This document shows, one piece after another, positions 18,608 to 41,111 of a stretch of 64,000 bases of DNA (the stretch's first letter is position 1; the number at the start of each line of letters is the position of its first letter). Under the pieces are notes generated by a model. It ran no database searches. It worked only from the letters and a program-made list of their open reading frames with translations, and was not told the origin of the DNA. Position numbers and translations under genes: made by a program. This DNA comes from Candidatus Hydrogenedentota bacterium (GTDB lineage: Bacteria > Hydrogenedentota > Hydrogenedentia > Hydrogenedentales > JAGMZX01). The stretch is from contig JAKQEQ010000037.1 in the NCBI GenBank assembly GCA_029556545.1, positions 1 through 64,000 on the forward strand, in the 5' to 3' direction.

Positions 18608-18619
18608 GGAGGATAGGCC

Positions 18620-18670: not shown

Positions 18671-18747
18671 GGCATGCTCTTTCCATGAAGCATACCGGGT
18701 TGCAGGTGGATGTACCGGCCACAACTGGGAGAACTCTTGAATGCTAA
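18667..18747 (+). CDS. Possible 26-residue leader peptide
   Basis: A 27-codon frame (starts MRHALSMKHTG, ends GRTLEC) with GGGAGG 5 bases upstream. Its ATG overlaps the stop of the 16-residue frame (ATGA), and its last codons overlap the ATG of the GHKL gene at 18741. Two strong ribosome binding sites in series with two overlaps look designed for translational coupling or attenuation. No protein family can be assigned. Confidence 0.35.
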   Translation: MRHALSMKHTGLQVDVPATTGRTLEC

Positions 18748-20756
18748 CCAACGTCAAAGGCAAGGTGCAAAATACGGACGTGCCCGTGTCCAAGCCATTA
18801 CTGCCTCTTTTCGAGGCCATCACGAATTCACTCCAGTCCATCGAAGACGCGGGACGGAGCCCAGGGCGAATCGACGTTACAATCCTCCGGGAACGCCAGA
18901 AACAACTTTCGGACGATGATCGCGCCTTTGCCGAAATAGTTGGTTTCCGCGTCACGGACGACGGAATCGGATTCACAGATACGAATTACCAAGCATTCAA
19001 CGAATCAGAGACAACCTTCAAGGCAGACAGGGGTGGGAAGGGAATTGGGCGTTTCACCTGGCTTGTAGCCTTCAGTGATGTCAGCATTTCTAGCGCTTAC
19101 AACGAGAGTGGGAAGAACCTGCTCCGCGTCTTTCGATTCGTACCTGTTAACGATGGAATTGCCGATGCGTCTGTCGTGCCGACAACCAATGGCCACGTTG
19201 CCACGACTATTGAGCTTCGCGGGTTCAGGGCGGCATATCAGAAACAATGTCCCAAGAAGCCGGAGACCATTGCCTCATACATTATCGAGCATTTTCTTGA
19301 GTTCTTCATTGGCCCGCGTTGTCCCGACATCTTTCTTCACGATGAAGCAGGAGGCGACCCCCTGGATCTGCGTCAAGTATTTGAGCACGAGATGGTGTCG
19401 AAATCACAGCCCGAGGGTATTCTCGTGGGTGAGACAGAGTTCACTATTCTTCACGTGCGACTCAACTCGACACATATCAAAGACCATGCCCTGCACTTCT
19501 GCGCAAATCACCGCGTGGTGTACTCCGAGAAGCTCGGGCGACAGATTCCCAATCTGACAGCGCGCCTTAGAGATGATAAGGAGCAGGAGTTTGTCTATGC
19601 AGGATATGTGGAATCTGACTATCTGGATACACATGCAAGTTCTGACCGAACGGCATTCAGCATAACTGAAGATGATTCAGAACTTCTTTCGAGCGAGATC
19701 ACCTGGACTGCAATACGCAAAGGTGTTCACGAAGCGTGCAGGGTCTTCCTAACTCCCTTTACAGAACCCGTCCGTATCCGCAAAGCCGAACGCATACAGG
19801 AGTTTGTGCGCAATCAAGCGCCAATGTACCGACCTATTTTGGACCTGATTCCCGATGAAGTCAATTCAATCAGTCCGGATGCCTCGGATGGTGAAATGGA
19901 CCTCCACTTGTATCGTGGTCTTCAGCGAATTGAACTCTCTCTGAAAGAGGAAGGGCAGAAATTGCTGAATACCACCAGTGGTGAGGAAGAGAACGTTGAC
20001 GAGTATCGGGACAAAATGAAGGAATACTTCGAGAAGGTCACAAAAATAAAGGCGGCGGACCTCGCGCGCTACGTATGCCAACGCAAAGCCATTCTTGAAT
20101 TCCTCAAGAAACAACTGAGCATCGCAGATGACGGCAAGTACCCAAAGGAAGACAGGGTACACAATATCATCTTCCCAATGGGCAAAACCTCCGATGAGGT
20201 GCGCCTTGACGAACACAATCTATGGCTGCTTGACGAAAGGCTCGTATATCATTTCTTCCTTGCGTCTGACAAGCAGCTTCGAGTTTTGGTTCCCCTCACG
20301 AATTCCGATCACAGCGAACCAGATATCATCGTGTTCGATAAGGCGTGCGCGTTTGTTGGCTCTGAGGAACATCCGTTTTCGAGCATTACCATTATTGAGT
20401 TCAAGCGCCCAATGCGGAAGGGTTACACAGAGAACACGAATCCCTTTGTCCAAGTTCGTGAGTACATTGATGAGATTCGAGCGGGAAAAGCGCGAACCCC
20501 CGATGGGCGCGACATCCCGATTCTAGCTGGGATGCCCTTCTACTGTTTCATTGTCTGCGATATCGACAGCACCATCGAAAAGCAGGCCTACGATTTTGAA
20601 TTAACCAAGACACCAGATGGTCAGGGTTTCTTTGGGTTCAAGCGACAGTACGATGCCTATTTCGAGGTCATTTCCTATAGCAAAATGGCTATGGACGCCC
20701 AGAAGCGAAATGCTGTGTTCTTTGACAAACTAGGCCTACCCTCACGGGTGGGATGA
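18741..20756 (+). CDS. GHKL ATPase with C-terminal PD-(D/E)XK-like motif
   Basis: 671 residues. The N-terminal ATPase domain shows the Bergerat fold motifs: E25-x-x-x-N29 (FEAITNS), D74-G-I-G (TDDGIGF) and the glycine loop GGKGIGRF (99-105). A helical middle region follows. Near the C-terminus D528 (EPDIIVF), then E553-x-K555 (IIEFKRP) form a spacing typical of PD-(D/E)XK nucleases, so the protein may be an ATP-gated nuclease; this is my reading and untested. The gene is noticeably more AT-rich than its neighbours. It is 6 bases upstream of the methyltransferase gene, so the two are co-translated. Confidence 0.82.
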   Translation: MLTNVKGKVQNTDVPVSKPLLPLFEAITNSLQSIEDAGRSPGRIDVTILRERQKQLSDDDRAFAEIVGFRVTDDGIGFTDTNYQAFNESETTFKADRGGKGIGRFTWLVAFSDVSISSAYNESGKNLLRVFRFVPVNDGIADASVVPTTNGHVATTIELRGFRAAYQKQCPKKPETIASYIIEHFLEFFIGPRCPDIFLHDEAGGDPLDLRQVFEHEMVSKSQPEGILVGETEFTILHVRLNSTHIKDHALHFCANHRVVYSEKLGRQIPNLTARLRDDKEQEFVYAGYVESDYLDTHASSDRTAFSITEDDSELLSSEITWTAIRKGVHEACRVFLTPFTEPVRIRKAERIQEFVRNQAPMYRPILDLIPDEVNSISPDASDGEMDLHLYRGLQRIELSLKEEGQKLLNTTSGEEENVDEYRDKMKEYFEKVTKIKAADLARYVCQRKAILEFLKKQLSIADDGKYPKEDRVHNIIFPMGKTSDEVRLDEHNLWLLDERLVYHFFLASDKQLRVLVPLTNSDHSEPDIIVFDKACAFVGSEEHPFSSITIIEFKRPMRKGYTENTNPFVQVREYIDEIRAGKARTPDGRDIPILAGMPFYCFIVCDIDSTIEKQAYDFELTKTPDGQGFFGFKRQYDAYFEVISYSKMAMDAQKRNAVFFDKLGLPSRVG

Positions 20757-20762
20757 GGAACT

Positions 20763-22436
20763 ATGAGTAATCGAGCGAAACTAGAGTTGACCTGGATTGG
20801 CAAGGAGAACCGGCCCAAGTTGGAGCCACGCATTCTCTTGGAGGATCCGGAGAAGTCGTATCACGCCAAGAGCCGGGTGTCGGAGAGCGATATCTTCGAC
20901 AATATGCTGATCTTCGGGGACAATCTGCTGGCGTTGAAGGCGTTGGAGCAGGAGTTCACAGGGAAGGTCAAGTGTATCTATATTGATCCGCCTTACAACA
21001 CGGGCTCCGCTTTCACCCACTATGATGACGGCGTTGAGCACTCACTGTGGTTATCTTTGATGAGGGACAGACTTGAGCTCTTGCGGGTTCTCCTGTCCGA
21101 AAACGGAACGATCTGGATTTCCATCGACGACAATGAGTGTCACTATCTCAAAGTGTTGTTGGATGAGATCTTCGGCAGACCGAATTTCGTCGCAACGGTG
21201 ATTTGGCAAAAGATGTTCTCGCCCAAAAGTACCGCACGCCACCTGTCAGACATGCACGATCACGTCTTGCTCTACGCGAAGAATAAGGATAAGTTTGAGC
21301 GCAATCTGCTTCCGAGGAGCGCAGAGCACAACAAGATGTACAAGAATCCAGATGATGATCCAAGGGGGCCATGGACTTCTGGCGACCTTTCTGCGCGCAA
21401 TCCTTACAGCGCAGGCATTTATCCCATTACGGCCCCATCGGGAAGGATAATCTCTGGTCCACCCAAAGGGATGTACTGGCGTGTTTCAAAGGAGAAGTTC
21501 CGGGAGATGGATCGGGACAACCGGATTTGGTGGGGGGCGAAAGGGGACAATCAGCCACGAATCAAGAGGTTCCTATCCGAAGTGATGGAAGGCATTGTTC
21601 CGCAAACGATCTGGTTCCATGAAGAGGTGGGAAACACTCAGGAAGCAAAGAAAGAGGTAATGGCCGCTGTGCCATCTGAGGCGGAGGTGTTTCAGACGCC
21701 AAAACCGGAAAGGCTAATAAAACGCGTTCTTGACATCAGCACAAAACCAGGGGATCTTGTGCTTGATTCCTTTGCCGGGACTGGCACTTTGGGCGCGGTG
21801 GCGCACAAGATGGGCCGCCGCTGGATTATGGTGGAGTTGGGCGAGCATTGCCACACGCACATCATCCCGCGGTTGAAGAAGGTTATCGACGGCGAAGATC
21901 CTGGCGGCATTACGAAGGCGGTGAGTTGGGGTGGTGGGGGTGGGTTCCGCTACTACCGGCTCGCGCCGTCGCTCCTGGAGCGGGACAAGTTCGGGAACTG
22001 GGTGATCAGCAAGAAATTCAACGCGGCGATGCTGGCGGAAGCGGTGTGCAAACTCGAAGGGTTCACCTATGCGCCAAGCGATGCGGTGTATTGGCAGCAG
22101 GGACACTCAACCGAGACGGATTTCATCTACGTGACAACGCAAACGCTGACGCGGGATATGATGCAGCAATTGAGCGACGAGGTCGGCGAGAAGCGGTCGT
22201 TGCTGGTGTATTGTGGCGCGTTCCGGGGAAAGGGCGACGCATTCCCGAATCTGACGGTCAAGAAGATACCCAAGGCCGTGCTCAGGAAATGCGAATGGGG
22301 CCGCGACGACTACAGCCTCGAAATCCGCGATCTGCCCCCACCCACCCCACCACCCCAACCCGAAGGCACACCTCCTGTTTTGAGAGGCAAGGAGCGCCGT
22401 AAGAAAGAACAAGAAGGCCAGGGAGAGTTGTTTTGA
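20763..22436 (+). CDS. Type III-like Mod DNA adenine methyltransferase
   Basis: 557 residues. Motif IV DPPYNTG (D75-P-P-Y78) precedes the AdoMet-binding FAGTGT (337-342), the beta-class order used by type III Mod subunits. It should methylate adenine in a short asymmetric site on one strand and so protect the host from the Res partner at 22905. The middle (about 95-325), where target recognition lies, is visibly more AT-rich than both ends, suggesting exchange of that domain. Two G/C-rich repeat tracts lie in the coding region: at about 21922-21948 (a Gly run) and about 22335-22362 (a Pro-rich stretch near the end). Confidence 0.9.
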   Translation: MSNRAKLELTWIGKENRPKLEPRILLEDPEKSYHAKSRVSESDIFDNMLIFGDNLLALKALEQEFTGKVKCIYIDPPYNTGSAFTHYDDGVEHSLWLSLMRDRLELLRVLLSENGTIWISIDDNECHYLKVLLDEIFGRPNFVATVIWQKMFSPKSTARHLSDMHDHVLLYAKNKDKFERNLLPRSAEHNKMYKNPDDDPRGPWTSGDLSARNPYSAGIYPITAPSGRIISGPPKGMYWRVSKEKFREMDRDNRIWWGAKGDNQPRIKRFLSEVMEGIVPQTIWFHEEVGNTQEAKKEVMAAVPSEAEVFQTPKPERLIKRVLDISTKPGDLVLDSFAGTGTLGAVAHKMGRRWIMVELGEHCHTHIIPRLKKVIDGEDPGGITKAVSWGGGGGFRYYRLAPSLLERDKFGNWVISKKFNAAMLAEAVCKLEGFTYAPSDAVYWQQGHSTETDFIYVTTQTLTRDMMQQLSDEVGEKRSLLVYCGAFRGKGDAFPNLTVKKIPKAVLRKCEWGRDDYSLEIRDLPPPTPPPQPEGTPPVLRGKERRKKEQEGQGELF

Positions 22437-22442
22437 TGGATG

Positions 22443-22469
22443 CACCACGAAGCCGCGAAGGACACGAAG
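22443..22469. repeat. Left inverted repeat of the GxxExxY cassette
   Basis: 27 bp (CACCACGAAGCCGCGAAGGA and onward) that match the reverse complement of 22861-22887 with one mismatch. It is built on a 9-bp period (..CGAAG..) like several arrays elsewhere in the window. It lies between the Mod stop and the GxxExxY start. Confidence 0.85.
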
Positions 22470-22480
22470 GGAGGCGATGA

Positions 22481-22852
22481 ATGGAGTTCGATTCGTTGTC
22501 CAACCGCGTGATCGGGTGCGCCTTGGAGGTGCATCGCCACTTGGGGCCTGGACTTTTGGAGTCCGCCTATGAGGAATGCCTTGCCTATGAGTTGCAGGTG
22601 GCGGGGCTGGCATTTTCGCGCCAGGTGGATTTGCCGGTGACCTATAAGGGTTTGCGCCTGGATTGCTGTTATCGAATGGATGTGGTTGTCGAGAATACGC
22701 TGCTGCTGGAACTCAAGAGCGTGGAGGCGTTGTTGCCGATCCACGAGGCGCAATTGTTGACCTATATGAAACTGTCCGGGCTGAAAACCGGCCTGCTCAT
22801 GAACTTCAACGAACGCTATCTGAAAGATGGACTGAAAAGGATGGTGTTATGA
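22481..22852 (+). CDS. GxxExxY protein (PD-(D/E)XK-like)
   Basis: 123 residues with the family motif GPGLLESAYEECLAYEL (residues about 22-38) and a downstream RMDVVVENTLLLELKSV segment that fits a PD-(D/E)XK nuclease-like core (D then E-x-K). Function unknown; the family is common as a small gene inserted beside other genes. Start ATG at 22481 has GGAGG 7 bases upstream. It is framed by 27-bp inverted repeats and sits between Mod and Res, breaking what would otherwise be the usual adjacent mod-res pair. Confidence 0.85.
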   Translation: MEFDSLSNRVIGCALEVHRHLGPGLLESAYEECLAYELQVAGLAFSRQVDLPVTYKGLRLDCCYRMDVVVENTLLLELKSVEALLPIHEAQLLTYMKLSGLKTGLLMNFNERYLKDGLKRMVL

Positions 22853-22860
22853 ATTTCCTT

Positions 22861-22887
22861 CTTCGTGCCCTTCGCGGCTTCGTGGTG
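22861..22887. repeat. Right inverted repeat of the GxxExxY cassette
   Basis: Reverse complement of 22443-22469 with one mismatch. It lies 8 bases after the GxxExxY stop and 17 bases before the Res start, so the small gene and its two repeats form a cassette of about 445 bp. Confidence 0.85.
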
Positions 22888-22904
22888 AACCAAAGGAGTG
22901 GCAT

Positions 22905-25571
22905 GTGAACCCCCAAGTAAACGCCATCAGCAACCGCCTGAGCCTGCGTCCGCCGCAGCGCGAGGCGCTGGAGATTTTGGACCGCGTGTGCGAGATCATC
23001 TCGCTGGAGAAGGGGGCGGACCTTGATCAGGCGCTGAGCGTCATCCGGTCCGAATTCCCTACGGTCGCCGATTTCGAGCGGGAGTTTCCCTCGCTGTGCT
23101 TCGCACTGGCGACGGGCGTGGGCAAGACGCGGCTCATGGGGGCCTTCATCAGCTACCTGTTCCGCGTCGAAAACATCCGGCATTTCTTCGTGCTGGCCCC
23201 TAACCTGACCATCTACAGCAAGCTGATCGCGGACTTCACGCCGAACACGCCAAAGTACGTACTCCAAGGCATCTCGGAATTCGCCACCACCCCGCCCGTG
23301 ATTATCACGGGCGACACCTACGAGCAAGGCATCGGCGTGCGCGAGGGCTACCTGTTCGAGGCGGGCGAGGTGCACATCAACATCTTCAACATCTCGAAGA
23401 TCAACTCCGAGGTGCGCGGCGGCAGCGCCCCGCGCATCAAGCGCCTGAGCGAGTACATCGGCGAGAGCTATTTCGAGTACCTGTCCAAGCTGGATGACCT
23501 GGTGCTGATCATGGACGAGTCGCATCGGTATCGCGCGACCGCCGGGGTGCGCGCCATCAACGAACTTCGACCTATTATCGGCCTGGAACTGACGGCCACG
23601 CCCCAGATCGAACGCGGCGGCGGGGCGGACCCGTTCAAGAACGTCATCTACAGCTATCCGCTGTCGTGCGCCCTGGACGACGGCTTCGTCAAGGAGCCCG
23701 CCGTGGCCACGCGCGAGAATTTCATCGCGGACAATTACGACCGCGACGGCCTGGAGCGGCTGAAACTCGAAGACGGCGTCCGGTTCCACGAGAACACCAA
23801 GGTCGAGTTGGAGGTGTTCGCCCGCGAAAACAGCCGCCCCATCGTAAAACCGTTCATGCTGGTGGTGGCGCAGGACACGGAGCACGCCGACGCACTGGTC
23901 AAGGTCATCGAGGATGACGCCTTCTTCGAGGGGCGGTACAGGGGGAAGGTGATCACGGTGCACTCGAACCTGCGCGGCGAGGAGAAAGACGATACCGTGC
24001 AGCAGTTGCTCTCCGTGGAGGATCCGGCCAATCCCATCGAGATCGTGGTGCACGTCAACATGCTCAAAGAGGGCTGGGACGTGACCAACCTGTACACCAT
24101 CGTGCCGTTGCGCACCGCGAACTCCCGGACGCTGGTCGAGCAGTCCATCGGGCGCGGCCTCCGCCTGCCCTACGGCAAGCGGACGGGCAATCCCGCCGTG
24201 GACCGGCTGACCATCGTGTCGCACGACCGGTTCCAGGAAATCATCGACCACGCCAACGACCCCAACTCCATCATCCGCACGGGCATCATCATCGGGCGCG
24301 ATGTCTCGGACGAACGGACGAAGGTGGTGGTGGTGCCGCCGACCATCGAGGCGCGGATAACGGGCGATGACGCCCAGGCGGCGGGCCAGCAGGGCCTGCT
24401 GTTCGACCGGCCCGAAGAGCGCCAAATCGCCCGCACCGTGCTCAACATCATCCGCGACTACGAGCGGCTGCCGCGCTCGGGCGATCTGTTGTCGCCCGAA
24501 GTGCAGAAGGAGTTGGTGGAGAAGACGGCGGCGGTGGTGACGCCGAAGCAGTACGAGATCGAGGGCACGTCCGAAAGGGTGGACCTGGTCAGGGTCGTTC
24601 GCGAGACGGCGGCGCAGTACGTGGCGATGTCGATCGACATCCCGCGGATCGTGGTGGTGCCGACCGGCGAGGTGACCGGCGGTTTCCAGGACTTCGATTT
24701 GGACACCTCCAACGTGCATCTCCAGCCGGTGGCCAACGACCTCATTTCGCAGGGGTTGCATAAAGGCCAGCGCTACCACCTGATCAGCGGCGACGGCATC
24801 GTGCCGGAGGAGCGGCTGGAAGACTACCTTGTTCGCGGCCTGATCGACTTTGACGACATCAACTATGACGATAACGCGGACCTCTTGTACAAGTTGGCCG
24901 GACAGATGGTCCGGCACCTGCAATCGTATCTGAAAAGCGAAGACGACGTGCTGAACGTGCTGCAGTATCACCAGCAGACGCTGGTTAACCTTATCCATGC
25001 GCAGATGCTCGCTTATTATAAGGAAGAGGCCACCGAGTACACGGCGCAGGTGACCAGGGGGTTCACCACCATCCGCGCGAACGCCTACAACGCGCCCGCC
25101 GATGAGCCCGTCCGTGACGTGCGCACGCCTGTGCCGGACTTGCAGAACATCCGTCGGATGCTGTTCGGCGGGTTCCGCAGGTGCCTGTATGGCGTGCAGA
25201 AATTCGATGCGGATTCGGAGCGTCGCTTCGCCGTGATCCTGGATACCGACCGCGACGTGCAGAAGTGGTTCAAGCCGGTGCGCGGCGACTTTCAGATCCA
25301 TTACGGCCATGACGACGCGGCGTACAACCCCGACTTCGTGGTGGAGACGGATAAGGCCAAGTACATTTGCGAACCCAAGGCCGCCAACGAGATGACCGAT
25401 GAGACGGTGCTGGCTAAGGCGCGGGCCGCCGCCGTGTGGTGCGAGCATGCTTCCAAGCATGCCCGCGACCATGACGGGAAGCCCTGGTCCTACCTCCTCA
25501 TCCCCGACGACCAAATCCGCGAAAACATGACGCTGCAAGGACTTGCAGCGGCGCACACCTTCCGGGCATGA
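22905..25571 (+). CDS. Type III-like Res helicase-endonuclease
   Basis: 888 residues, GTG start after AAAGGAG. N-terminal superfamily II helicase: Walker A ATGVGKT (K74), DEAH-like MDESHRYR (near residue 204), TATPQ, and a C-terminal helicase half ending in QSIGRGLRLPYG. A C-terminal nuclease motif follows: P-D810-F, then E823-P-K825 (PDFVVE...CEPK). Type III Res proteins translocate or slide on DNA and cut when two unmethylated sites meet, needing the Mod partner. Length and motif order fit the family. Confidence 0.9.
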   Translation: MNPQVNAISNRLSLRPPQREALEILDRVCEIISLEKGADLDQALSVIRSEFPTVADFEREFPSLCFALATGVGKTRLMGAFISYLFRVENIRHFFVLAPNLTIYSKLIADFTPNTPKYVLQGISEFATTPPVIITGDTYEQGIGVREGYLFEAGEVHINIFNISKINSEVRGGSAPRIKRLSEYIGESYFEYLSKLDDLVLIMDESHRYRATAGVRAINELRPIIGLELTATPQIERGGGADPFKNVIYSYPLSCALDDGFVKEPAVATRENFIADNYDRDGLERLKLEDGVRFHENTKVELEVFARENSRPIVKPFMLVVAQDTEHADALVKVIEDDAFFEGRYRGKVITVHSNLRGEEKDDTVQQLLSVEDPANPIEIVVHVNMLKEGWDVTNLYTIVPLRTANSRTLVEQSIGRGLRLPYGKRTGNPAVDRLTIVSHDRFQEIIDHANDPNSIIRTGIIIGRDVSDERTKVVVVPPTIEARITGDDAQAAGQQGLLFDRPEERQIARTVLNIIRDYERLPRSGDLLSPEVQKELVEKTAAVVTPKQYEIEGTSERVDLVRVVRETAAQYVAMSIDIPRIVVVPTGEVTGGFQDFDLDTSNVHLQPVANDLISQGLHKGQRYHLISGDGIVPEERLEDYLVRGLIDFDDINYDDNADLLYKLAGQMVRHLQSYLKSEDDVLNVLQYHQQTLVNLIHAQMLAYYKEEATEYTAQVTRGFTTIRANAYNAPADEPVRDVRTPVPDLQNIRRMLFGGFRRCLYGVQKFDADSERRFAVILDTDRDVQKWFKPVRGDFQIHYGHDDAAYNPDFVVETDKAKYICEPKAANEMTDETVLAKARAAAVWCEHASKHARDHDGKPWSYLLIPDDQIRENMTLQGLAAAHTFRA

Positions 25572-28588: not shown

Positions 28589-29131
28589 ATGGATCTGCTG
28601 GATCTTCTGCTTGAGGATGGCTTCAAACCGTTGCGCAAGACGGTGAACGAATGGGCGTCGCCTTGTCCATGGTGTCCGGACCACGGGCGGGATCGGTTCA
28701 TCATCAGACGGACAGGATCCGTTCTGCGGTTCTGGTGCCGTCGTTGCGGACGCCGTGGTGCGGCGTATACGTATCTCGTCGAGTTCCGGCAACTGGCTCC
28801 CGAAGCGGCACGGCGAATCCTCGGCGTGTCCGAGCAGGAAATGCGGCGGCTTCAAGGTGATTCCTCACACCCCAATTCGCGTAGCAATTCGGACGCACGC
28901 CGCCGCCCTCCACTGATTTGGCGGGAGAAGGCGTGGCTGACCGTCCTGGCGTGTGAGCGTGAGCTATGGTCCGGCTCACAGAAGACCGAGGACGTTCTTC
29001 ATTGGCTCAGAGATGAGCGCGGTCTGTCGGACGAGACAATCAAGGAATTCCGTCTCGGTTATGTGGCGCGAACTGTCTTCCGCGAGCGCGAGAGTTGGGG
29101 CCTGTCCGACTCCAGAGAGGTACGCGAATGA
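28589..29131 (+). CDS. Stand-alone CHC2 zinc-finger primase domain
   Basis: 180 residues with a DnaG-type zinc site: C26-P-W-C29, H32, then C50-R-R-C53. The rest (about 60-180) corresponds to the start of a DnaG-like core without a TOPRIM domain. The TOPRIM domain is at the start of the next gene, whose ATG overlaps this stop (ATGA). The two therefore act as a split primase. The reading frame upstream of 28589 overlaps the preceding gene and is not used. Confidence 0.85.
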   Translation: MDLLDLLLEDGFKPLRKTVNEWASPCPWCPDHGRDRFIIRRTGSVLRFWCRRCGRRGAAYTYLVEFRQLAPEAARRILGVSEQEMRRLQGDSSHPNSRSNSDARRRPPLIWREKAWLTVLACERELWSGSQKTEDVLHWLRDERGLSDETIKEFRLGYVARTVFRERESWGLSDSREVRE

Positions 29132-31668
29132 GCGTGTTCGTTCTTCCAGAAGGCTTGCTGTTTCCCCACGTCGAGGCAGACGGCGTGACCGGGGAGGTCT
29201 CTGTTGGTCGCCTGAGAATACGGAAGGCCGAACAGAGCGGCTCGAAGTATCACACGGTGGCGGGTTCCAGCATGACGCCCCTCTGCATCGGCCTGCGCCG
29301 GACGTTCCCGGTTGTCGTAGTCGAATCGGATCTGGACGCGATGCTCGTGTCGCAGGAGGCTGGCGACCTTGTCGGGGTTGTCGCCTTGGGGTCCGTGACC
29401 AACCGCCCGGATGAGGAGACGTTCCGCATTCTCAGGAGGGTCCCCCTGATCATCGTGTCCTTGGATAGCGATCCTCCTGCGGCGCGGGAATCGCGGCAGT
29501 ACTGGGAGCGGCATTTCCCTCGGAGCGTACGCTGCCCCATACCGCGAAGGTTCGGGAAGGACCCCGGGGAGGCCTTCCGCAACGGCCTCGACATCCGAAC
29601 GTGGGTTGTCAGCGCCCTCAAGATGGCCGATTGGTCGCTGCCAGACGAGGAAGATTTGGACGCAACGCGCCTGAGCGCCTGCGATGTGCATGGCCCATCC
29701 GATCCGCTTCCCATTGAGGACGACAAGCCTGACGACTACGCAGCACCGGCGTGTGACGCGCCCGTTGCCGTTGCGTCCTCCGGGGAATCGCCCGCACCGG
29801 CGTGTGCGGTCGGCGAGACCCCGCCCGACGAAGGTCCAGAGGGTTCTCTTGCTCCGGTTCCGACGTTTGAGTACATCACGGACGACGACCACGCGCGGAA
29901 GGCCGTGGCGTCTCTGCTGGAGGCACCGAGCCCGTACGGGGCCGATATCGAAACAGCGAAGCACCCTGATTATGCCGGGCATCCCCAGAGCGGCCTGGAC
30001 CCCCACCTCTCGCGCATCCGCTTGGTGCAGATTTGCGCAGCGGGCCTGCCCATCTATGTGTTCGACTTCTCCGGGATCGACCCGAGTATCCTAGCGCCGC
30101 TGTGGGACCGCCCGATGGTCTTCCACAACGCCCTTTTCGATATCCGCCATATCCTTCACTCCGGCGCGAATCCGTCCAAGGTCGGCTGCACGATGCTGAT
30201 GGACAATGCCCTGGCGGGGGGGATGCGCGGCCTCGCCGACCTCGCGGAGGACTATCTCGGACTCGCGGTTTCCAAGGCGGAGCAGACATCAGACTGGAAT
30301 GCCCCACACCTGACAGAAGATCAGCTTGCTTATGCCGCCCTCGATGCCTGCTTGGTTCTTCAGCTCTATCACATACTCCGGGAACGGCTCGCGGGCGAGG
30401 GGCTCGGGCGATGCTACGCGTTGATGCGCGACGCGCAGCGCGCCGTCGCCGAGACGATGCTGGCGGGGCTCGGTTTCGACGTCGCGGCGCACGCCGACGT
30501 GGTCCGCGAGTGGGAGGCTCAGCGGGACACGGCGAAGGCGAGGGTGGTCGAGGTACTTGGCCCTGACATTGACCGAAACAGCCCTACTCAGGTGGCCCGG
30601 TGGTTCGAGACCCACCTTGACGAGGGAACGTTGCGGGAGTTGCCTCGAACGAAGACGGGGCAAATCTCCACGGCGGCGGAGTCCCTGGCCGCCATCGGTA
30701 ATCATCCCGCTGTGCGTAGCTTGATCGAGTACAAAGCTGTCCAGACGCTCTTGTCCACGTTCGGCGCGCCGTACGCTCGGCATGTGAACCCCGTGACCCG
30801 CCGCCTTCACGGTGGTTTTCGTTTCTGCACCTCCACGGGTCGCATGAGATGCAAGAATCCCAATGTTCAGAACGCCCCAAGGCAGCAGTCTTTCCGCGCC
30901 CTTTTTGTGGCCAAGCCCGGTCACGTTCTTCTAAAGGCCGACTACAACCAGATGCAGCTTAGAGTGGTGGCCGAGCTTTCCCAGGACGCCACCATGCTCG
31001 AAATCTTCCGGGAGGGGCGGGACATCCACCGCCTGACCGCCGCCGCTATCACCGGCAAGATGCCGTCCGAGGTGACGAAGTCTGAGAGGAGTGCTGCCAA
31101 AAAGAGCAACTTTGGTTTCATCTTTGGAATCGGACCGAAGAGATTTCGTATGGATGTTATGGAGGAATATAGTATAGATATGACATTTGAAGAAGCAAAG
31201 CAAATTCGCAGCATCTTCTTCAGGACCTATCCGGGCGTTGAGAGATGGCACAGGTGGCTGTCCGCACGTGCCAAGCAGACCTGGAGTGTCACGACGCCGG
31301 GCGGTCGTGTCCGCAGATTTCCGCGAAAGGGGAACCAGCCGCCCTACACGGAAGTGCTCAATACGCCCGTGCAGGGCGGCGAGGCCGAGGTCCTGCTATC
31401 GGCGCTGGCCCTGTTCCCCGAGCGGCTCGGGGGGCTGGACGCCAAACTCGTGAATGTCGTTCATGACGAGGTCCTGTTCGAGGTCGCAGAGGCGGACGTC
31501 TCCAAGGCGGTTCCCATTATCGAGGCCGTCATGGTCGAGGCCATGCAAGCCGTCTTCCCGGATTGCAGCACCAGGAATCTGGTGGATATCTCTGTAGGCA
31601 AGGACTGGGGTAATACGGCGAAGTACTGCGCCGACTCCGTGGCGGGCTGCGCCGGATTGGAGGGTTGA
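29128..31668 (+). CDS. TOPRIM-3'-5' exonuclease-DNA polymerase I fusion
   Basis: 846 residues. Residues about 1-170 are a TOPRIM domain with E66 (VVVESD) and D113-S-D115, the primase/topoisomerase metal residues. A Pro/Ala/acidic linker (about 170-250) leads to a DnaQ-like exonuclease: D273-x-E275, N334...D338, and Y402-x-x-x-D406. A family A polymerase follows: motif A D605-Y-x-Q, motif B R654...K658...F662 and motif C H779-D780-E781. There is no 5'-3' exonuclease. The motif B Tyr normally preceding the final Gly is Phe here (F666). All catalytic acids look intact. Joined to the CHC2 gene and next to a D5-like ATPase, this is a primer-synthesising replicase for the island. Confidence 0.88.
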   Translation: MSVFVLPEGLLFPHVEADGVTGEVSVGRLRIRKAEQSGSKYHTVAGSSMTPLCIGLRRTFPVVVVESDLDAMLVSQEAGDLVGVVALGSVTNRPDEETFRILRRVPLIIVSLDSDPPAARESRQYWERHFPRSVRCPIPRRFGKDPGEAFRNGLDIRTWVVSALKMADWSLPDEEDLDATRLSACDVHGPSDPLPIEDDKPDDYAAPACDAPVAVASSGESPAPACAVGETPPDEGPEGSLAPVPTFEYITDDDHARKAVASLLEAPSPYGADIETAKHPDYAGHPQSGLDPHLSRIRLVQICAAGLPIYVFDFSGIDPSILAPLWDRPMVFHNALFDIRHILHSGANPSKVGCTMLMDNALAGGMRGLADLAEDYLGLAVSKAEQTSDWNAPHLTEDQLAYAALDACLVLQLYHILRERLAGEGLGRCYALMRDAQRAVAETMLAGLGFDVAAHADVVREWEAQRDTAKARVVEVLGPDIDRNSPTQVARWFETHLDEGTLRELPRTKTGQISTAAESLAAIGNHPAVRSLIEYKAVQTLLSTFGAPYARHVNPVTRRLHGGFRFCTSTGRMRCKNPNVQNAPRQQSFRALFVAKPGHVLLKADYNQMQLRVVAELSQDATMLEIFREGRDIHRLTAAAITGKMPSEVTKSERSAAKKSNFGFIFGIGPKRFRMDVMEEYSIDMTFEEAKQIRSIFFRTYPGVERWHRWLSARAKQTWSVTTPGGRVRRFPRKGNQPPYTEVLNTPVQGGEAEVLLSALALFPERLGGLDAKLVNVVHDEVLFEVAEADVSKAVPIIEAVMVEAMQAVFPDCSTRNLVDISVGKDWGNTAKYCADSVAGCAGLEG

Positions 31669-33181: not shown

Positions 33182-33362
33182 CCCCGACTGTCCTCCCACG
33201 GTCCACCGGCGTGATGTGGCGCGGAGCGGGGTTCCGGCTTCCGGCGGGAAACGGGCGGGCGGTTCTGCGCTTCGGCGGCGGCGGGCGGGAGTGCAGGCGG
33301 GGCCTGCTTTCCCATGGAAACGCTGGGGTTGGGCGCGGGGGCGGGCCGGGGGCGCGTCCGGA
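33182..33362. repeat. Direct repeat, left copy, flanking block F
   Basis: About 180 bp starting CCCCGACTGTCCTCCCACGG, matching 40826-41007 in the same orientation at roughly 80% or more by eye. The copies bracket the sacsin-like ATPase and HEPN-SNF2 genes. Confidence 0.85.
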
Positions 33363-33802: not shown

Positions 33803-36800
33803 CTACACACCGCGCCTCTCCGACACCATCGCCCGCAGGTCGATGGCATGGCTTTGGACGAAGCGGATGGTTGCAGATTCCTCGCCAAGCGTGACGGGCA
33901 ACTCCAGGGCGTCGCCGATTTGGGCAAAGGCATCCCGGAGTGTGTCTCGCGCATCGTCTGATCCATGGAACACGAACTCATCGTACTTAGCCGCGCAGAC
34001 CGGGCAAAGGGCAAGGTAGTTGGCGTCAAGTTCCTTCGGCAAATCGAAGGCTTCGACCTTCTCGAAGTAGTGCTTGCCGTTCTTCTCTCGGAAGGGCATC
34101 TCGTCCTGGCAGATCTGGCAAATCAGCTGATCATCGTCATTCGTGTAGAGATCTCGAAGGTACGCTTCCACTTCGGCTTTGCCTTGCGTGCGGCTGGTTC
34201 GGACGCTTCGCTCCCGCTTCTCGTGCTGCTTATCGGGTGCGCCAGCCGCTTTCTCCTTAGCCTTTCTTTTGCGCCGTTCTGGATCAGCGGAGGTCCGCTC
34301 CGGGAACGCGGGTTGCGCTTGCCGGCTTTCCCGCCACCTCTGAAACCCCTCGGGATCCTCTTTCTTCAGCCTGGCCATTTCCTTAGCTTCTTCCAATGAA
34401 TCGAAGCCGACATCTTTTATCGCAGCATCTATGTCTTGCTGCTCAGAAAGCATCACTCCTAGAGCCCTTGCCAGTTGTTCGTTTCTGTTCCAATCTTCAG
34501 GAAGGTCGTGATAGCGCACATCGTTAGGTCTGCGAAATCCACCGGTGCCGTCCGGAATCCACTCCGTGTGATGCAGCAACTGGCCTGCCTTAGAAAACTG
34601 CTCTTCGCGTTTCTGTGGAATGAAATCCTTTGTCACGTACTTGCCATATGTATTGCATTCTTCAACTGTCCCTTTGATGAAACGCAAACGGTTTAAGAGA
34701 AGCTCATTCCAGATGTATGCGCTCTTCTCCATTGAGGCCGGGAGCTCACTCAAAGCAGTTTTCAGATGCTCGATGTCAAAATCTGGATGGAACCCATCAA
34801 GGCATCGAAGTTTGTGAGAATAGGATCGTTCAATGCGAACGAGTTGACCTGCCTTTCCGTCTCCATGGTAAGTCTTCGGGGATGATTGCACACTCATCTG
34901 GCCCAACGCAGACCCAAGAACTTCAATGACATCTTCGTGTACGAGCCACACTTTTTCATTCCCGTGCAGATAAGCCAGGAGCCCGTCGTCTTCTGGAAGC
35001 CAGACATCGCCGGGTTTCTTTAGAGCCAATTGCATGTTGCCAGCATTCTCAGCCTTTATGAATGGCGTCTTACGGCACTCCGTAAGTAAGCGCTCAGTCT
35101 TCTCCTTAGAGTCACTTAACAGTGCGCTGACTATACGTTTGAGCTCTGCGGAAGTAGGAAAATCTACGGTTTCAAGATCGGGAGCAGTCTGATACTTTGA
35201 GAGGATGGTCCTGATTACGCGTTCAATCCTATCAAGCTCTTGTACTCCTACTTCGCTCAGAAACGTCTTGGCTTTCTCCTTCTGACTGTCATCGCTTCCA
35301 CTAGAATAGACGCCGCTCGCGACTCGGGGAAACTCGTCTTCGTGCTCAACCCCGTCGGTCGGGAAGAAGCATTCGCTTCCCTTGCGATAAGTCTCATCAC
35401 TGCATCGAACAAGAGCAAGATTCTTAATAGTCGTTGTTCTTTCCGTCTTTGCATAGCTAGGAGGCGCATTCAGGTACTCATTCAACATGGAATATAGCGC
35501 TTGATGCCATCTTTCATCCTTGCTACCCATCCATTGCCCCAGGGCATCCTTGTTCAGCCTGCCCAATGCTTTCACGACTGCGGCTGTGTCCCATTGCTCA
35601 ATACCGAGCATCGACGAAAAGTTGTCCTCACGCTGATTGCGCTGGGGGGGATTGGAAGCCCATATCGGAGCAACATAGTTGTCACCCAAGAGCGTGAGCA
35701 TATCGTCATCATCAATAAGGTCCGAGAGTGCCTTCGTGCCCCGAAAGATGCCGTCGGCCGCGGCGTGGCTGCCGCGCTTCATGGGGACAAGATCCTCTTC
35801 CTTGAATTCCGTAACTAGCCGTCCCATTAGCGGCACGTAGAACTCCGACAGATTGTCCCTGTCGTTGGGAAGTACCGCCAAGGCTCGTACGGTCAGCAAG
35901 CCTTGATCGCGGATCGCGGACATCGATTCGGCCAGCAGCTCGGCCAGGTGATCGCGCAACACATTGTTTCCCGCACAATCGCGGACACTGTCGCGCGCGA
36001 CCGTTGAGGCGAACGGCGCATGGAGATGGAAACGCAGATTGGAGGTTTCTTTGTCCGCCGGGAAATAGATGCATACGCGTCCCGGCTCCATCGCCGCGAG
36101 TTCCCACTCGGGGGTGGCAACCGCGTCGTCGCCTTTCTTTTCCTTGGCACCCGCCTTCGCTGCAACTGGCGACAATCCGAAGGCCACGGCGATGCGGCAG
36201 AGCTTTGTTTTCTCGTCTTCCTTTTCAGACTCTTCGTCTTCAACCTCCACTTCCTTATCGAACTTCAAGAACCAGGTCGATGAAGGGGCAAGTTCGTTCG
36301 GTTGTTGGACGCGAATCTCGTAGCGGTTGTAACCAATGTCGATTCGTTCAATGTAACCGAGCGATGAATCAGGGAGAAGATACTCTATCTTGCGGATGTG
36401 CGTAAGGAAGAGCAAGGTTGTCGCGCCGAGCGCCTTTAACAGTCTTTCGATCTCGCCCTTTGCCTGCTCCGGTCCCTTTTTGTGGTTATCAAACGGCAAG
36501 ATGAATCGCGTTTGCTTGTCCCCCAATTGGCTTCTTGAACGCCCGTTCGGTTCTGGAACCACCATATCACGAATTCTGAAATGAAACTCACCAGATTCGA
36601 CTTCCGGTGTTTCAGTGTAGGCAAACACGGCTTTGAATCCAACGCCGAATTGACCGATACTGGTTGCGTCATCGCGTTTGGTGCTGAACCCGATGCTGGT
36701 AATGGCATCCACGTTATCGATAGAAAAAAGTCGCTCGCCGTCGTGCTCGAATTCGATGCGATCCTCATGCAGGATAAACCGCACCTCTTGAGCTCGTGCG

Positions 36801-36970
36801 TCCTCGGCATTCTGAAGCAATTCATAAATGAAATGGGCATTGTCCGGATAGAGGTCCGTGAGCAGGCGCTTGAGACCTGCTTCAAATCCGTTCTCTCGGT
36901 TTGCGTCAACCCATTTTCGGCGTTTCAAGGCGATGGACTCGATCGTTTCAGGCATGGCTTCACTATCCAT
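33803..36970 (-). CDS. Sacsin-like GHKL ATPase with C-terminal zinc site
   Basis: 1055 residues. The N-terminal ATPase of the sacsin/Hsp90-like type has E50-x-x-x-N54 (YELLQNAEDA) and the glycine loop SIGQFGVGFKAVF near residues 103-115. The long middle is mixed helix and beta without a known motif. Near the C-terminus (about 945-990) CQIC and CPVC pairs with an intervening HYFE segment form a treble-clef-like zinc site. It overlaps the SNF2 stop by 8 bases (36963-36970), so the two proteins are made together. A defence role, with the ATPase as a chaperone-like switch, is inferred from context. Confidence 0.82.
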   Translation of the reverse strand: MDSEAMPETIESIALKRRKWVDANRENGFEAGLKRLLTDLYPDNAHFIYELLQNAEDARAQEVRFILHEDRIEFEHDGERLFSIDNVDAITSIGFSTKRDDATSIGQFGVGFKAVFAYTETPEVESGEFHFRIRDMVVPEPNGRSRSQLGDKQTRFILPFDNHKKGPEQAKGEIERLLKALGATTLLFLTHIRKIEYLLPDSSLGYIERIDIGYNRYEIRVQQPNELAPSSTWFLKFDKEVEVEDEESEKEDEKTKLCRIAVAFGLSPVAAKAGAKEKKGDDAVATPEWELAAMEPGRVCIYFPADKETSNLRFHLHAPFASTVARDSVRDCAGNNVLRDHLAELLAESMSAIRDQGLLTVRALAVLPNDRDNLSEFYVPLMGRLVTEFKEEDLVPMKRGSHAAADGIFRGTKALSDLIDDDDMLTLLGDNYVAPIWASNPPQRNQREDNFSSMLGIEQWDTAAVVKALGRLNKDALGQWMGSKDERWHQALYSMLNEYLNAPPSYAKTERTTTIKNLALVRCSDETYRKGSECFFPTDGVEHEDEFPRVASGVYSSGSDDSQKEKAKTFLSEVGVQELDRIERVIRTILSKYQTAPDLETVDFPTSAELKRIVSALLSDSKEKTERLLTECRKTPFIKAENAGNMQLALKKPGDVWLPEDDGLLAYLHGNEKVWLVHEDVIEVLGSALGQMSVQSSPKTYHGDGKAGQLVRIERSYSHKLRCLDGFHPDFDIEHLKTALSELPASMEKSAYIWNELLLNRLRFIKGTVEECNTYGKYVTKDFIPQKREEQFSKAGQLLHHTEWIPDGTGGFRRPNDVRYHDLPEDWNRNEQLARALGVMLSEQQDIDAAIKDVGFDSLEEAKEMARLKKEDPEGFQRWRESRQAQPAFPERTSADPERRKRKAKEKAAGAPDKQHEKRERSVRTSRTQGKAEVEAYLRDLYTNDDDQLICQICQDEMPFREKNGKHYFEKVEAFDLPKELDANYLALCPVCAAKYDEFVFHGSDDARDTLRDAFAQIGDALELPVTLGEESATIRFVQSHAIDLRAMVSERRGV

Positions 36971-39900
36971 TGGCGGTTCTCTCTACCCGCAGCATCCCCC
37001 ATCCAACGGGGCGGGTGGTGATGTCGGCTTTCTGTGTGGCTTCCTCAATTTCGCTGATGTGGCGGTCGAAGTCGGCTTGAGCGTTTTCCTTCTGACGTGA
37101 TTTCATGGTGCGGATCTTGTCGTTTCGGGCCTCGGCCAGTTGGGAGTCAAGGACCGCCATGCGGGCCTTGTGGCTGGTATCAAGACTGGAGCGGCGAAAC
37201 TCGGCAACGCGCTGAGTGTTCTCGATATGTCCCGCGCGGGCATCGGACCAGGCTTCGTAGTGGCGGCTTTCGAGCGCGTTGCGCGTTTCCTCGGTAATCC
37301 TGTCGGAAGCAACCTCGAACCCCTCGGCGTCGGCCAGCAACCGCAGGAACTCGCCGGTGAGGGCCGGATTAGTCGTGACGGGCCGGAACTCGACATCGTC
37401 GCGGATGCCGTGGTACTGCCACTGATAGACGGCGAAGGGATAGTCGCCCGGTGAGACGGCGTCGGTAGAGACACGAATGCCAACGACGGGCACGCCGTCA
37501 CCGGCTCCTCCGACGGTACGGGCAGCTTGTACGGCCAACGGGTGAATGGGCGTGATGAGACAGATGGTCCGATCCTCGACTGCGCAGGCCGAATCGAAGG
37601 TGACGGCCAAGTTTGGCTCATTGCCCTTAAGCCATGTTTCCCACTCCCGGGCGATGGGAGAAGTACGGTTCTCGATCGCCGCAAAATCCTTTAGCAGCGC
37701 CTCGCGGACCTCGCGGGCCAGACGCAGGCGTTTCTTCGGGCCATCTCCGCTAAGGGGGGATTCCTCCTTTCCGGCGCGGCCGCGCAAGTATTCCACGACC
37801 AGGCGTTCGAGCGAGGTGGCGGAGAGCCAGTAGCTGGAAGCGTCCTCGATATCCTGCTTGAACTGATCGGCGGGCATGCGCAGGCCGAACAATTCAGTCT
37901 GGCGCGTTTCAAGATCCTGTTGTTCCTTGACAAGCCGAATGCTGTTGTCAGCGAGTTGTTCCAGTTTGGCCTGACGTTCCGCCGGCGACAGGGAGAGGTT
38001 TTCGGCAACGCTTGTGATCTCGCGGGTGACTTCGCCCAGGATCGCCTCGTTGGCCCCAAGCGCGCGTTCGAAGACGCCGATGCGCAGCAGACAGCGTTCG
38101 TAGATTTCGGCGTCGATGGTGTCCGGGGTGATGAGGTTGTAGATCGCCACGGCCTCGCTGGTCTGCCCCCAGCGGTCAATACGACCGATGCGCTGGTCGA
38201 TGCGCATAGGGTTCCAGGGCAGGTCATAATTCACCATGCAGTCGCAGAACTGATAATCAAGCCCCTCGCAACCGACCTCGGAGAAGAGGAGCACATCGAG
38301 GGCTTCGGCATCGTCACGGTTCGTTTCGAATCGCGCGCGAAGCGCGACGCGTTCGTCGTCGCCTACGCCGCCATGGATCAGACCAACGCGGAAACCTTCA
38401 TCCTGAAGCGCCTTGTAGAGGTAGGCGAGCGTGTGGCGGAAACTGCTGAACAGCATGACTTTGTTATTCGGGAGCGCCTGTTTGTCTTCGAGAATGCCTT
38501 TCAGGGCAAGGAACTTGGGGTCGGCGTCGGGATCGCATGGCAGGGTTTCAGCCTGACGCAGGGCATCGTCGATGAGTTGCCGAACCGTCGGCGCCGCGCG
38601 GTCGATGTCGAGGTCAATCCCGTCGTCCTCGCCCTCCTCCACACTCAGGCAGTCGAGTTCGTCAAATCGGCGCGAGAGGATGTCCTGGAGGAACGGTGCC
38701 AGCGCCTGGATACAGCTCGCCGCCTGTCGGCGAATGGTCGTGAGGAGAAACCGGACCGATTGAACGCCATGCAGTTCGGCATAGACGGCGGCCTGGGCGG
38801 CGATGACGGCATCGTGCAGACTCTTCTGCTCGGGGGTGAACTCGACTGTCACCGTCTGGGGTTTGCGTTGGGTGAATTCGCCAATGTCGCGGCGCAGAGT
38901 ACGGTTCATCAGGCCGGACAGCGTGTGCAACTGCTCAATGCTTCGAATCGCATGAACGCGCACAGCCCGGTCGTCCCCGGCATGGGCGAGGGAATCAAAG
39001 ACCTCCTGAAAGCGTGGGTCATTCCGCAGCACTGACCGGCCCCAGGGCGTTCCGGCGGCCTCCGTCAAGGCTTCACGCGCTTCTTCGGCCCAGCCAGGGC
39101 CACCCTTGCGTGCGCAGAGAGCGGCCTGGTTGATGTGTGCGTTCGGTTCTGTGATGGCCCCATAACTGGCCTTGTCGATGATGATGTCGGGACGCAAGGT
39201 GTTCAGAAGCACGAAAAGATCGTTATCGCTCATCTGAATCGGTGTCGCGGTGAGAAAAACGACGGCTTCGGCGTTTTCGCAGAAGAATCGAATGGCCTCG
39301 TGGCGCTGCGTATTCGTGTTGCGGATGTGGTGCGCCTCGTCAACGACCACAAGGTCGAACTGCGGCGGCGGGTCGAGTTGGAGCAGGCCCTTCCGGCGCT
39401 TGCCGCTCCCATGCAGGACTTCGTCGGTCAGGAGCGAGAAGGGGAGGATGGCCTTCTCGTAGCGCTGCGGCCATTCGCCGTCGAGGTCCATTTCGGAGAT
39501 GCAATGGCGTAATTTGGGGCCGTCGAGATGTTCGAAACGCTCATCGAATCGCTTCATTTCCCGTCGCCATTTCTCCTCCGTAACAAGTGGGCGGGGACAG
39601 GCGATGAGCACGCGCCGGATATCGCGGCGGGCCTGGAGTTCGCGAAGAATCAGCCCGGCCTCGATCGTCTTTCCAACGCCGACACTATCGGCGATCAGTA
39701 AGCGCGGCCGGTCGGAGCGGATGAACTTCAGTACGGGACGGAACTGATAGGGGATCAGTTCGATGCGCGCGGCGTGGAGCGAGTAAAGATTTGATATGCC
39801 CGGGTGTAGCAGTTGCAGGGCCGTCAGGTGGGCATGGAATTCACGCAGAGACGCAACAGTCATCGACTCGTCTTTGAAGTCGCCCGGCATGAGTTGGCTT

Positions 39901-40559
39901 TCGTAATAAGAGGCCTTCCCGCCGTCGAGGAAGACGTGGTAGCGGGTTTCCTTTTCGCCTGGCATCGCGGCGATAACCGCGCCGGATTTTGAGGGATTGG
40001 CGCGCAGCCGAACGACGTCGCCGGGGGCGTATGTCGTCTGCCGCTCTGGTTGCGAAGCGGCCTGCTGCTGGAGCGCAGTTTCAGGGTATGGAGATGGTGG
40101 CTTGCTCAAAACGGTTTCCTTTGCTTCCCGAATCTCCGATAGAAGCGGGTCGTCGGGGGCAAGGAGAATCAGGAAACGCTGAAGCGTATCCAGATCACGA
40201 TAGATGTCTTCGCCCGATGGAGCCGCCACCTGCGCGTGCGCCCAGCGGTTGCGGACCGTCTGCATCTCCTTGACGAAATTGCGACTCTCGTAGGGCCAGT
40301 TCCGTGATTGCACGAGCTCGAACCAGTTTTGATCCAGAACGCGTAGCAGCGCGGCAAGGTCGAGTTGTTCCAGATGGTCGATGCCTTGACGTTCCACGGC
40401 CTCCTGTTGCCGAAACGAGAGTTTGCCATAGACCCGCTGGCCCCACCAATCCGAGCCGAGAATGGGCAACATCTCTTCCAGAGCATGGCAGAGTGAATGG
40501 GCTGCTTTCTGCAGCAGACCTTGCATGCTTACTAGGTGGGGGTTGACGTCTGTATCCAT
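36963..40559 (-). CDS. HEPN-SNF2 helicase fusion
   Basis: 1198 residues from the ATG at 40559 (the frame is open to 40700, but the extra part looks non-coding). Residues about 10-115 are a Swt1-like HEPN domain with the R-x4-H motif RNRWAH (R103, H108), the catalytic signature of HEPN RNases. A linker with a beta-strand module (about 175-225) leads to the SNF2 ATPase: Walker A SVGVGKT (K297), DEAH in VVVDEAHH, TATPIQ, and motif VI QRIGRIDRWGQ. The C-terminal end is coiled coil. Fusion of an RNase to a DNA-translocating ATPase fits abortive infection: sensing by the helicase, RNA cutting by HEPN. Confidence 0.85.
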   Translation of the reverse strand: MDTDVNPHLVSMQGLLQKAAHSLCHALEEMLPILGSDWWGQRVYGKLSFRQQEAVERQGIDHLEQLDLAALLRVLDQNWFELVQSRNWPYESRNFVKEMQTVRNRWAHAQVAAPSGEDIYRDLDTLQRFLILLAPDDPLLSEIREAKETVLSKPPSPYPETALQQQAASQPERQTTYAPGDVVRLRANPSKSGAVIAAMPGEKETRYHVFLDGGKASYYESQLMPGDFKDESMTVASLREFHAHLTALQLLHPGISNLYSLHAARIELIPYQFRPVLKFIRSDRPRLLIADSVGVGKTIEAGLILRELQARRDIRRVLIACPRPLVTEEKWRREMKRFDERFEHLDGPKLRHCISEMDLDGEWPQRYEKAILPFSLLTDEVLHGSGKRRKGLLQLDPPPQFDLVVVDEAHHIRNTNTQRHEAIRFFCENAEAVVFLTATPIQMSDNDLFVLLNTLRPDIIIDKASYGAITEPNAHINQAALCARKGGPGWAEEAREALTEAAGTPWGRSVLRNDPRFQEVFDSLAHAGDDRAVRVHAIRSIEQLHTLSGLMNRTLRRDIGEFTQRKPQTVTVEFTPEQKSLHDAVIAAQAAVYAELHGVQSVRFLLTTIRRQAASCIQALAPFLQDILSRRFDELDCLSVEEGEDDGIDLDIDRAAPTVRQLIDDALRQAETLPCDPDADPKFLALKGILEDKQALPNNKVMLFSSFRHTLAYLYKALQDEGFRVGLIHGGVGDDERVALRARFETNRDDAEALDVLLFSEVGCEGLDYQFCDCMVNYDLPWNPMRIDQRIGRIDRWGQTSEAVAIYNLITPDTIDAEIYERCLLRIGVFERALGANEAILGEVTREITSVAENLSLSPAERQAKLEQLADNSIRLVKEQQDLETRQTELFGLRMPADQFKQDIEDASSYWLSATSLERLVVEYLRGRAGKEESPLSGDGPKKRLRLAREVREALLKDFAAIENRTSPIAREWETWLKGNEPNLAVTFDSACAVEDRTICLITPIHPLAVQAARTVGGAGDGVPVVGIRVSTDAVSPGDYPFAVYQWQYHGIRDDVEFRPVTTNPALTGEFLRLLADAEGFEVASDRITEETRNALESRHYEAWSDARAGHIENTQRVAEFRRSSLDTSHKARMAVLDSQLAEARNDKIRTMKSRQKENAQADFDRHISEIEEATQKADITTRPVGWGMLRVERTANG

Positions 40560-41021
40560 CCTGGCTTTCGTCCTCTCATGTGGTCTCCATGATCCATTGC
40601 GGTGCTGGGCGAGGTCTCGGTTCGATTGCAGCCCTCTGGCGACGGCGAGTTCGCGTGCGCGTATTCGACTCGTGAGTACATGTTCTGTGGCCGCGTGCAC
40701 TATATTCTACAGTTACACCACATGCCTGCTCAATTTGGAACCGCTGGGTTCAACAGCAGTCTTTGCCGTTACTGATTCTCGTTTCGGGTTCGTTACCCAA
40801 CGATGCGTTCCCGGCCGTCCAGGAGCCCCGACTGTCCTCCCACGGTCCACCGGCGTGATGAGGCGCGGAGCGGGGTTCCGGCTTCCGGAGCGAAAGGGCC
40901 GCACGGTTCTGCCGTTCGGCGGCGGCGGGCGGGATCGCAGGCGGGGCCTGAATTCCTCATGGAATCGCTGGGCTTGGCGCGGGGGGCGGGCCAGGGGCGC
41001 ACCCGGAAAAGTGCAGGAAAA
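40560..41021. other. 462-bp gap between the HEPN-SNF2 gene and the tRNA
   Basis: Holds the upstream region of the HEPN-SNF2 gene and the right copy of the direct repeat (40826-41007), which ends 14 bases before the tRNA 3' end. No gene I can support. Confidence 0.6.
40826..41007. repeat. Direct repeat, right copy, next to tRNA-Ser
   Basis: Same-orientation match to 33182-33362, beginning CCCCGACTGTCCTCCCACGG. It lies between the HEPN-SNF2 gene and the tRNA-Ser 3' end, i.e. at the island's right edge. Confidence 0.85.
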
Positions 41022-41079
41022 TGGCGGAGAGGCAGGGATTCGAACCCTGGTTACGGTAAACCGTAAAACGGCTTTCGAG
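41022..41079 (-). other. Right att site within tRNA-Ser
   Basis: The 3' half of the tRNA gene, from CCA to the anticodon loop, that is repeated at 177-234. The end of identity at the anticodon loop marks the probable crossover region, as is common for tyrosine integrases using tRNA genes. Confidence 0.85.
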
Positions 41080-41111
41080 GCCGCCGCCTTCAACCACTCG
41101 GCCACCTCTCC
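41022..41111 (-). tRNA. tRNA-Ser(CGA)
   Basis: Folds as a class II tRNA: 5' GGAGAGG pairs with 3' CCTCTCC, G discriminator, encoded CCA. The anticodon loop CTCGAAA gives anticodon CGA (reads UCG). It has a long variable arm (ACGG/CCGT hairpin) and T arm CAGGG-TTCGAAT-CCCTG. It is intact and remains functional because the island replaced its 3' half with an equivalent sequence. Confidence 0.95.

Follow-up and report, generated by a model that had tools for sequence, protein, structure and literature searches.

The two-gene locus studied here lies on the reverse strand of the window, that is, the whole 64,000-nucleotide stretch of Candidatus Hydrogenedentota DNA that was analysed. It is composed of a gene encoding a 1198-aa HEPN-SNF2 helicase of the RapA/DrmD-like type (36963..40559), recognized as an open reading frame and by Pfam, PADLOC and NCBIfam profiles, followed by a gene encoding a 1055-aa sacsin/HSP90-type GHKL protein (33803..36970), recognized as an open reading frame, by profiles and by a structural model. 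Both reading frames were found where the preliminary description had placed them, together with their 8-base overlap (36963..36970). The helicase start was assigned to the ATG at 40559; an alternative in-frame GTG is present upstream, at 40700, and the ATG was favoured because the alignment with relatives begins at about residue 10. A direct repeat of about 160 bp flanks the module; its left (33182..33340, forward strand) and right (40826..40984, forward strand) copies are 89% identical, are the only two found in the genome and adjoin a tRNA-Ser(CGA) gene (41022..41111, reverse strand) placed 38 bases past the right repeat. These flanking repeats suggest acquisition of the module in one piece. 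A search for the empty integration site in the genus-mate genome G001 found none; the tRNA-Ser match there is close to the end of a contig, and that genome lacks the left flank.

For the upstream gene, Pfam, PADLOC and NCBIfam agreed on a HEPN_Swt1 domain joined to an SNF2/RapA-type helicase. The motor comprises an SNF2-related ATPase domain (PF00176, residues 287-595, 38775..39701) and a helicase C-terminal domain (PF00271, residues 684-798, 38166..38510), with the Walker A motif VGVGKTIE at residues 293-300 (39660..39683). K297 of this motif, the DEAH box and the arginine motif were kept in all 84 aligned rows. The best profile match was DrmD, along which residues 176-1180 could be aligned, with a DISARM_DrmD score of 306 bits, below the NCBIfam equivalog cut-off of 610; the RapA score, 169 bits, was likewise under its cut-off of 576. 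The window helicase shares a RapA-like core and a defence context with DrmD, RapA and BrxHII-type Swi2/Snf2 helicases, but scores below the curated cut-offs and carries an extra HEPN domain. DISARM also differs in its DrmA/B/C components, in place of which a constant sacsin-like partner is found here: no DrmA, DrmB or DrmC was detected among ten window ORFs searched with PADLOC (14-33 kb) or among the ten scanned with Pfam.

The Swt1-like HEPN domain spans residues 28-130 (40170..40478) and matched PF18731 with 52.5 bits against a curated cut-off of 27.5 (E 7e-14). Its R-x4-6-H catalytic motif, R103-N-R-W-A-H108 (40236..40253), is conserved in relatives, R103 being present in 64/66 and H108 in 62/66 of the rows having a residue there, which upholds the N-terminal Swt1-like HEPN with R-x4-H proposed in the preliminary description. 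PF18731 was also matched by 56 of 56 aligned HEPN segments, all preselected for the R and the H. The predicted structure is all-helical, with a pLDDT of 90, and places H108 after the helix bearing R103. Foldseek against the PDB gave no significant match to a solved HEPN structure: the best E value was 0.57, with HepT (6m6u) and AbiF (8vz6) at about 2.5, and a sequence search found no solved relative. Because of this Foldseek result, the HEPN identity rests on the profile and the motif. Where it is present, the domain probably works as an RNase.

The partner matched the Pfam SACS family (E 2e-17), and its GHKL nucleotide-binding domain, corresponding to the sacsin N-terminal domain, occupies residues 33-135 (36566..36874). 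Profile comparisons retrieved the SR1 structures of lizard sacsin (5v47, E 2e-20) and human sacsin (5v44, E 5e-19), and Foldseek on an AlphaFold2 model (pLDDT 83.5) retrieved HSP90 (E about 1e-9) and sacsin (E about 1e-7), so that the GHKL fold was confirmed by both approaches. Moreover, the Bergerat N and G2 boxes (E50/N54/D57 and G106/G109/G111/K113) were complete in 76/76 rows. The preliminary description had noted a C-terminal CxxC/CxxC site, which is indeed present (C951/C954/C989/C992) and conserved in relatives, the last cysteine being replaced by histidine in about one third of them; what had appeared as merely paired CxxC motifs could be refined to an HNH-type treble clef (residues ~946-1000, 33971..34135) matching the HNH domain of McrA (6ghc, E 1e-5). 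An active HNH nuclease was considered for this tail and rejected, since the catalytic His-His pair before the second CxxC is missing. When McrA 'YLEVHHV...ALCPNCH' is aligned with 'YFEAVEL...ALCPNCA' of the partner family, 'EVHHV' stands opposite 'EAVEL' and the last histidine of McrA opposite an alanine, which indicates that the catalytic histidines were lost. The tail most probably serves as a zinc module for docking or for binding DNA.

With human sacsin the partner shares the SR1-type GHKL domain. Human sacsin also carries a HEPN domain, but it is from a different family and sits within the one polypeptide, whereas the bacterial layout divides the functions between two genes, places a Swt1-type HEPN on the helicase and showed no DnaJ domain. 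Tiamat is a single-gene system. To our knowledge, sacsin-like GHKL ATPases occur in bacterial defence, as in Tiamat, with no task assigned to them. The N-terminal half of the partner matches the TmtA profiles of Tiamat in PADLOC (E 2e-60), but the best match covers only positions 5-575 of the 1302 in the model, short of full length; the partner differs further in its position, next to the helicase in every locus retrieved, and in ending in an HNH-like zinc domain. Variants of the partner were also observed: in a HEPN-less Poribacteria locus (L053, 11092-14817) it has an Hfq-like end (Pfam Hfq E 5e-7, above cut-off), and in L012, L033, L039, L063 and L126 it is long, about 1500 aa, probably owing to extra repeats.

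The conservation of the pair was assessed in the 80 best relatives retrieved when a helicase alignment was run against GTDB, each species being represented by a single genome; the partner played no part in the selection. These relatives, mostly from metagenome assemblies, come from about 20 phyla by their record names. Culturable carriers include Pseudomonas sp. BN417 (L075) and Aromatoleum toluolicum (L062). A sacsin-like gene was the next gene downstream in 69/69 relatives with at least 700 bp of sequence there, and in 57 of the 69 the two genes overlapped or lay at most 20 bp apart, which bears out the earlier proposal of a two-gene set conserved together. Similarly, among 68 genomes of the window's own phylum five had the helicase and six had the partner, including all five with the helicase; the lone partner sits on a 6-kb contig. 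The two genes are neighbours in four of the genomes with both, and in G060 they are on separate contigs, the helicase being cut at a contig end. Such co-occurrence would be expected by chance with a probability of about 6e-7 if the genes were independent (6/C(68,5), calculated by hand and ignoring relatedness). In G002, from the same order as the window, both proteins are identical to those of a Hydrogenedentes record (L026). Phyla are intermingled in the helicase tree, suggesting horizontal transfer. Phages rarely carry the helicase, which turned up in five contigs of IMG/VR and in a handful of gut-phage records lacking annotation.

The HEPN domain proved to be an optional element of the helicase. 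A six-frame profile search in the 80 relatives scored it as absent in 17, one of which (L044) is cut at a contig end, and three rhizobial plasmid copies with a helicase about 48% identical lack it as well; a constant HEPN component was rejected on these grounds. Mapped on the helicase tree, the HEPN state required a minimum of five changes, three of them forced by well-supported branches, on a tree that does not separate gain from loss. HEPN-less members must act without that RNase, so HEPN cannot be the sole output of the pair. Consequently, the earlier idea of an RNase gated by a DNA translocase suits most members and leaves the 17 relatives and the rhizobial copies outside. Comparison of neighbour genes found no consistent replacement effector beside HEPN-less members. 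A small upstream gene in the rhizobial loci was considered as a detached HEPN and rejected, as it matched no Pfam family and did not align with HEPN; by eye it looks sigma-factor-like. A DUF6883 gene lies directly upstream of the HEPN-less helicases of L049 (2693-3220) and L057 (7432-7788), and a small family of about 200 aa is located between the two genes in four loci, with and without HEPN alike.

The partner varies in another manner, by exchange. On average across loci, helicase cores were 55% identical and partners 31%, and several pairs of loci combined closely related helicase cores with dissimilar partners: 89% versus 33% for L057-L049, 88% versus 29% for L044-L013, 87% versus 36% for L077-L072 and 86% versus 25% for L016-L013. 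Other pairs of loci with helicase cores 83-85% identical had partners at 63-70%. Compared with genomes G004 and G048, the window shows about 85% identity in the helicase core and 29% in the partner, and in both genomes two different partners stand in tandem behind one helicase. The same tandem arrangement of two different sacsin-like genes after one HEPN-SNF2 gene was observed in L106 (1453-8212) and L107 (1516-8275). Helicase sisters are separated in the GHKL tree, and AU tests rejected co-descent in five of the six pairs that had been named from the helicase comparison before that tree was built (L049-L057, L013-L016, L072-L077, window-L010 and window-L106); for the sixth, L014-L022, co-descent was not rejected. 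Among related partners, the N-terminal ATPase half is conserved, identity falls to 16-40% over residues ~450-900 (34271..35623 in the window), the most variable stretch of the protein, and becomes high again in the zinc tail. In several partner pairs the flanks of this middle were 50-82% identical, and the region was delimited from the drop in identity together with column conservation. Such a profile would suit a region that diversifies for recognition while the working ends on either side stay conserved; the variation could also reflect relaxed constraint instead of recognition. Taken together, partner exchange and the variable middle make the sacsin-like protein the favoured candidate for the recognition subunit on a conserved motor, a role that is put at an even chance.

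The genomic neighbourhood adds a functional context. The neighbours scanned were hand-picked large ORFs from nine relatives, which show occurrence and not enrichment over background; they included Type I, IIG and III restriction-modification (R-M) proteins, DruE-, DpdE- and DrmMI-like proteins, the last beside the L083 relative, and the PADLOC candidate PDC-S68, while the neighbours of L032, one of the nine, gave no match. The neighbours vary by locus (Type I, IIG, III, PDC-S68, non-defence genes) and only the sacsin-like gene is constant. In the window itself, a Type III R-M cluster is located on the forward strand at 15785-25571, 8-18 kb from the pair. It is formed by a DrmD-like SNF2 helicase (15785-18607; PDLC02619, 698 bits) and a 671-aa protein without a match (18741-20756), both ahead of the Type III methyltransferase (20763-22436) and restriction endonuclease (22905-25571). 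This context of Type I/III R-M and DISARM/Druantia-like genes strongly suggests a putative defence function for the pair, which we hold to be likely. Other neighbours were observed in passing. PDC-S68 holds the position directly downstream of the pair in L019 and L040, and a TM0106-type RecB-like nuclease/helicase does so in L008 (15177-18566), on an Ensifer plasmid. Between the two defence loci of the window, a gene at 29095-31668 (forward strand) encodes an 857-aa family-A DNA polymerase with a 3'-5' exonuclease domain; it weakly matches the polA-associated DRT model of PADLOC and, with its surroundings, is absent from the genus-mate G001.

The whole would be best explained by a compact anti-invader system, most likely antiphage, a reading to which we give about as much credence as doubt. 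In such a system, the RapA/DrmD-type DNA translocase would be the conserved chassis and the sacsin-like GHKL protein an exchangeable subunit for recognition and switching, whose ATP-gated N-terminal domain would clamp, whose variable middle would recognise the invader, and whose catalytically dead HNH-type zinc finger would dock on DNA or on the helicase. The N-terminal HEPN of the helicase would be an add-on ribonuclease kept inactive in the resting complex. Recognition by the sacsin-like subunit, together with translocation on invader DNA, would release or dimerise HEPN, which would then cut RNA and stop the infected cell or the phage.

The optional presence of HEPN on an otherwise conserved pair would also fit a system in which the helicase and the sacsin-like protein were themselves the primary interference, blocking or stripping invader DNA, with HEPN as a fail-safe that the intact complex restrains and that is freed only once a phage inhibitor disables this complex. 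The same logic is proposed by Anantharaman et al. (PMC3710099) for HEPN domains attached to restriction systems, and an N-terminal HEPN on DUF499 ATPases has been termed a backup effector (PMC12839542). However, no active nuclease can be recognised in the pair, the HNH domain being dead, which leaves the primary output unexplained, and we consider this arrangement unlikely. A toxin-antitoxin or addiction function is improbable. It would make the HEPN-helicase a toxin and the sacsin-like protein a chaperone-like antitoxin, kept for element maintenance, as the two-gene operon, the mobile context with flanking direct repeats and the HEPN toxins known from MNT-HEPN pairs (PMC3710099) might indicate; yet HEPN-less members retain the same partner, a diversifying ATPase of 1055 aa is unlikely as an antitoxin, and the partners are freely exchanged, which cognate antitoxins rarely tolerate.

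The similarity of the helicase core to RapA, and the RapA-like architecture shared by such defence helicases (PMC12839542), might instead recall a role in transcription recycling or stress, coupled to RNA processing and unrelated to defence. This is very improbable, given a score far under the RapA cut-off, a patchy distribution (5/68 phylum genomes), a cross-phylum spread and restriction genes as neighbours. Equally remote is the notion that the pair belongs to DISARM, or to the window's Type III R-M cluster, as a peripheral component and does not form an independent system: DrmD is the best profile match, that cluster has its own DrmD-like helicase and L083 adjoins a DrmMI-like gene, but the DrmD score is about half the cut-off and the neighbours differ among loci, around a sacsin-like gene that alone is constant.

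Several known systems come close to this pair. The fusion of a Swt1-like HEPN to an 'SWI2/SNF2-ATPase (WQE_15321), active' was listed in 2013 by Anantharaman et al. (PMC3710099); the window gene is likened to it by its description, as the same domain fusion listed as catalytically active, and not by sequence, and the passages of that paper on the fusion describe neither a sacsin-like partner nor HEPN-less members. HEPN domains serving as accessory effectors are already known from BREX-related and Dnd systems (PMC12839542, PMC10853773). In the DUF499-centred BREX-related (Hma) systems, the ATPase that neighbours a Swi2/Snf2 helicase carries an optional N-terminal HEPN as such an effector (PMC12839542), whereas here HEPN is on the helicase and there is neither a methyltransferase nor a DUF499 ATPase. 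In Hachiman HamAB, a helicase restrains a nuclease until aberrant DNA is sensed (PMC12278908); it differs in its helicase family, in the DNA-cutting HamA nuclease and in having no GHKL protein. The HEPN/SNF2-sacsin pair found no description in PADLOC 2.0, NCBIfam 20 or the literature searched, which mostly excluded preprints and subscription papers. The HEPN_Swt1-SNF2 fusion is therefore already known, and its pairing with a sacsin-like gene looks undescribed.

More broadly, we tentatively propose a widespread, so far undescribed immune system built on one conserved SNF2 motor, into which sacsin/HSP90-like GHKL ATPases would fit as interchangeable subunits for pathogen recognition, with an optional HEPN RNase as output. 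The natural exchanges, in which near-identical helicases have unrelated partners, make the task of the sacsin-like protein directly testable. If the proposal is true, a two-gene system across about 20 phyla would be added to the known immune systems, and a sensor role for the sacsin-like subunit would be relevant to the question of why animals possess sacsin, an HSP90 relative with a HEPN domain.
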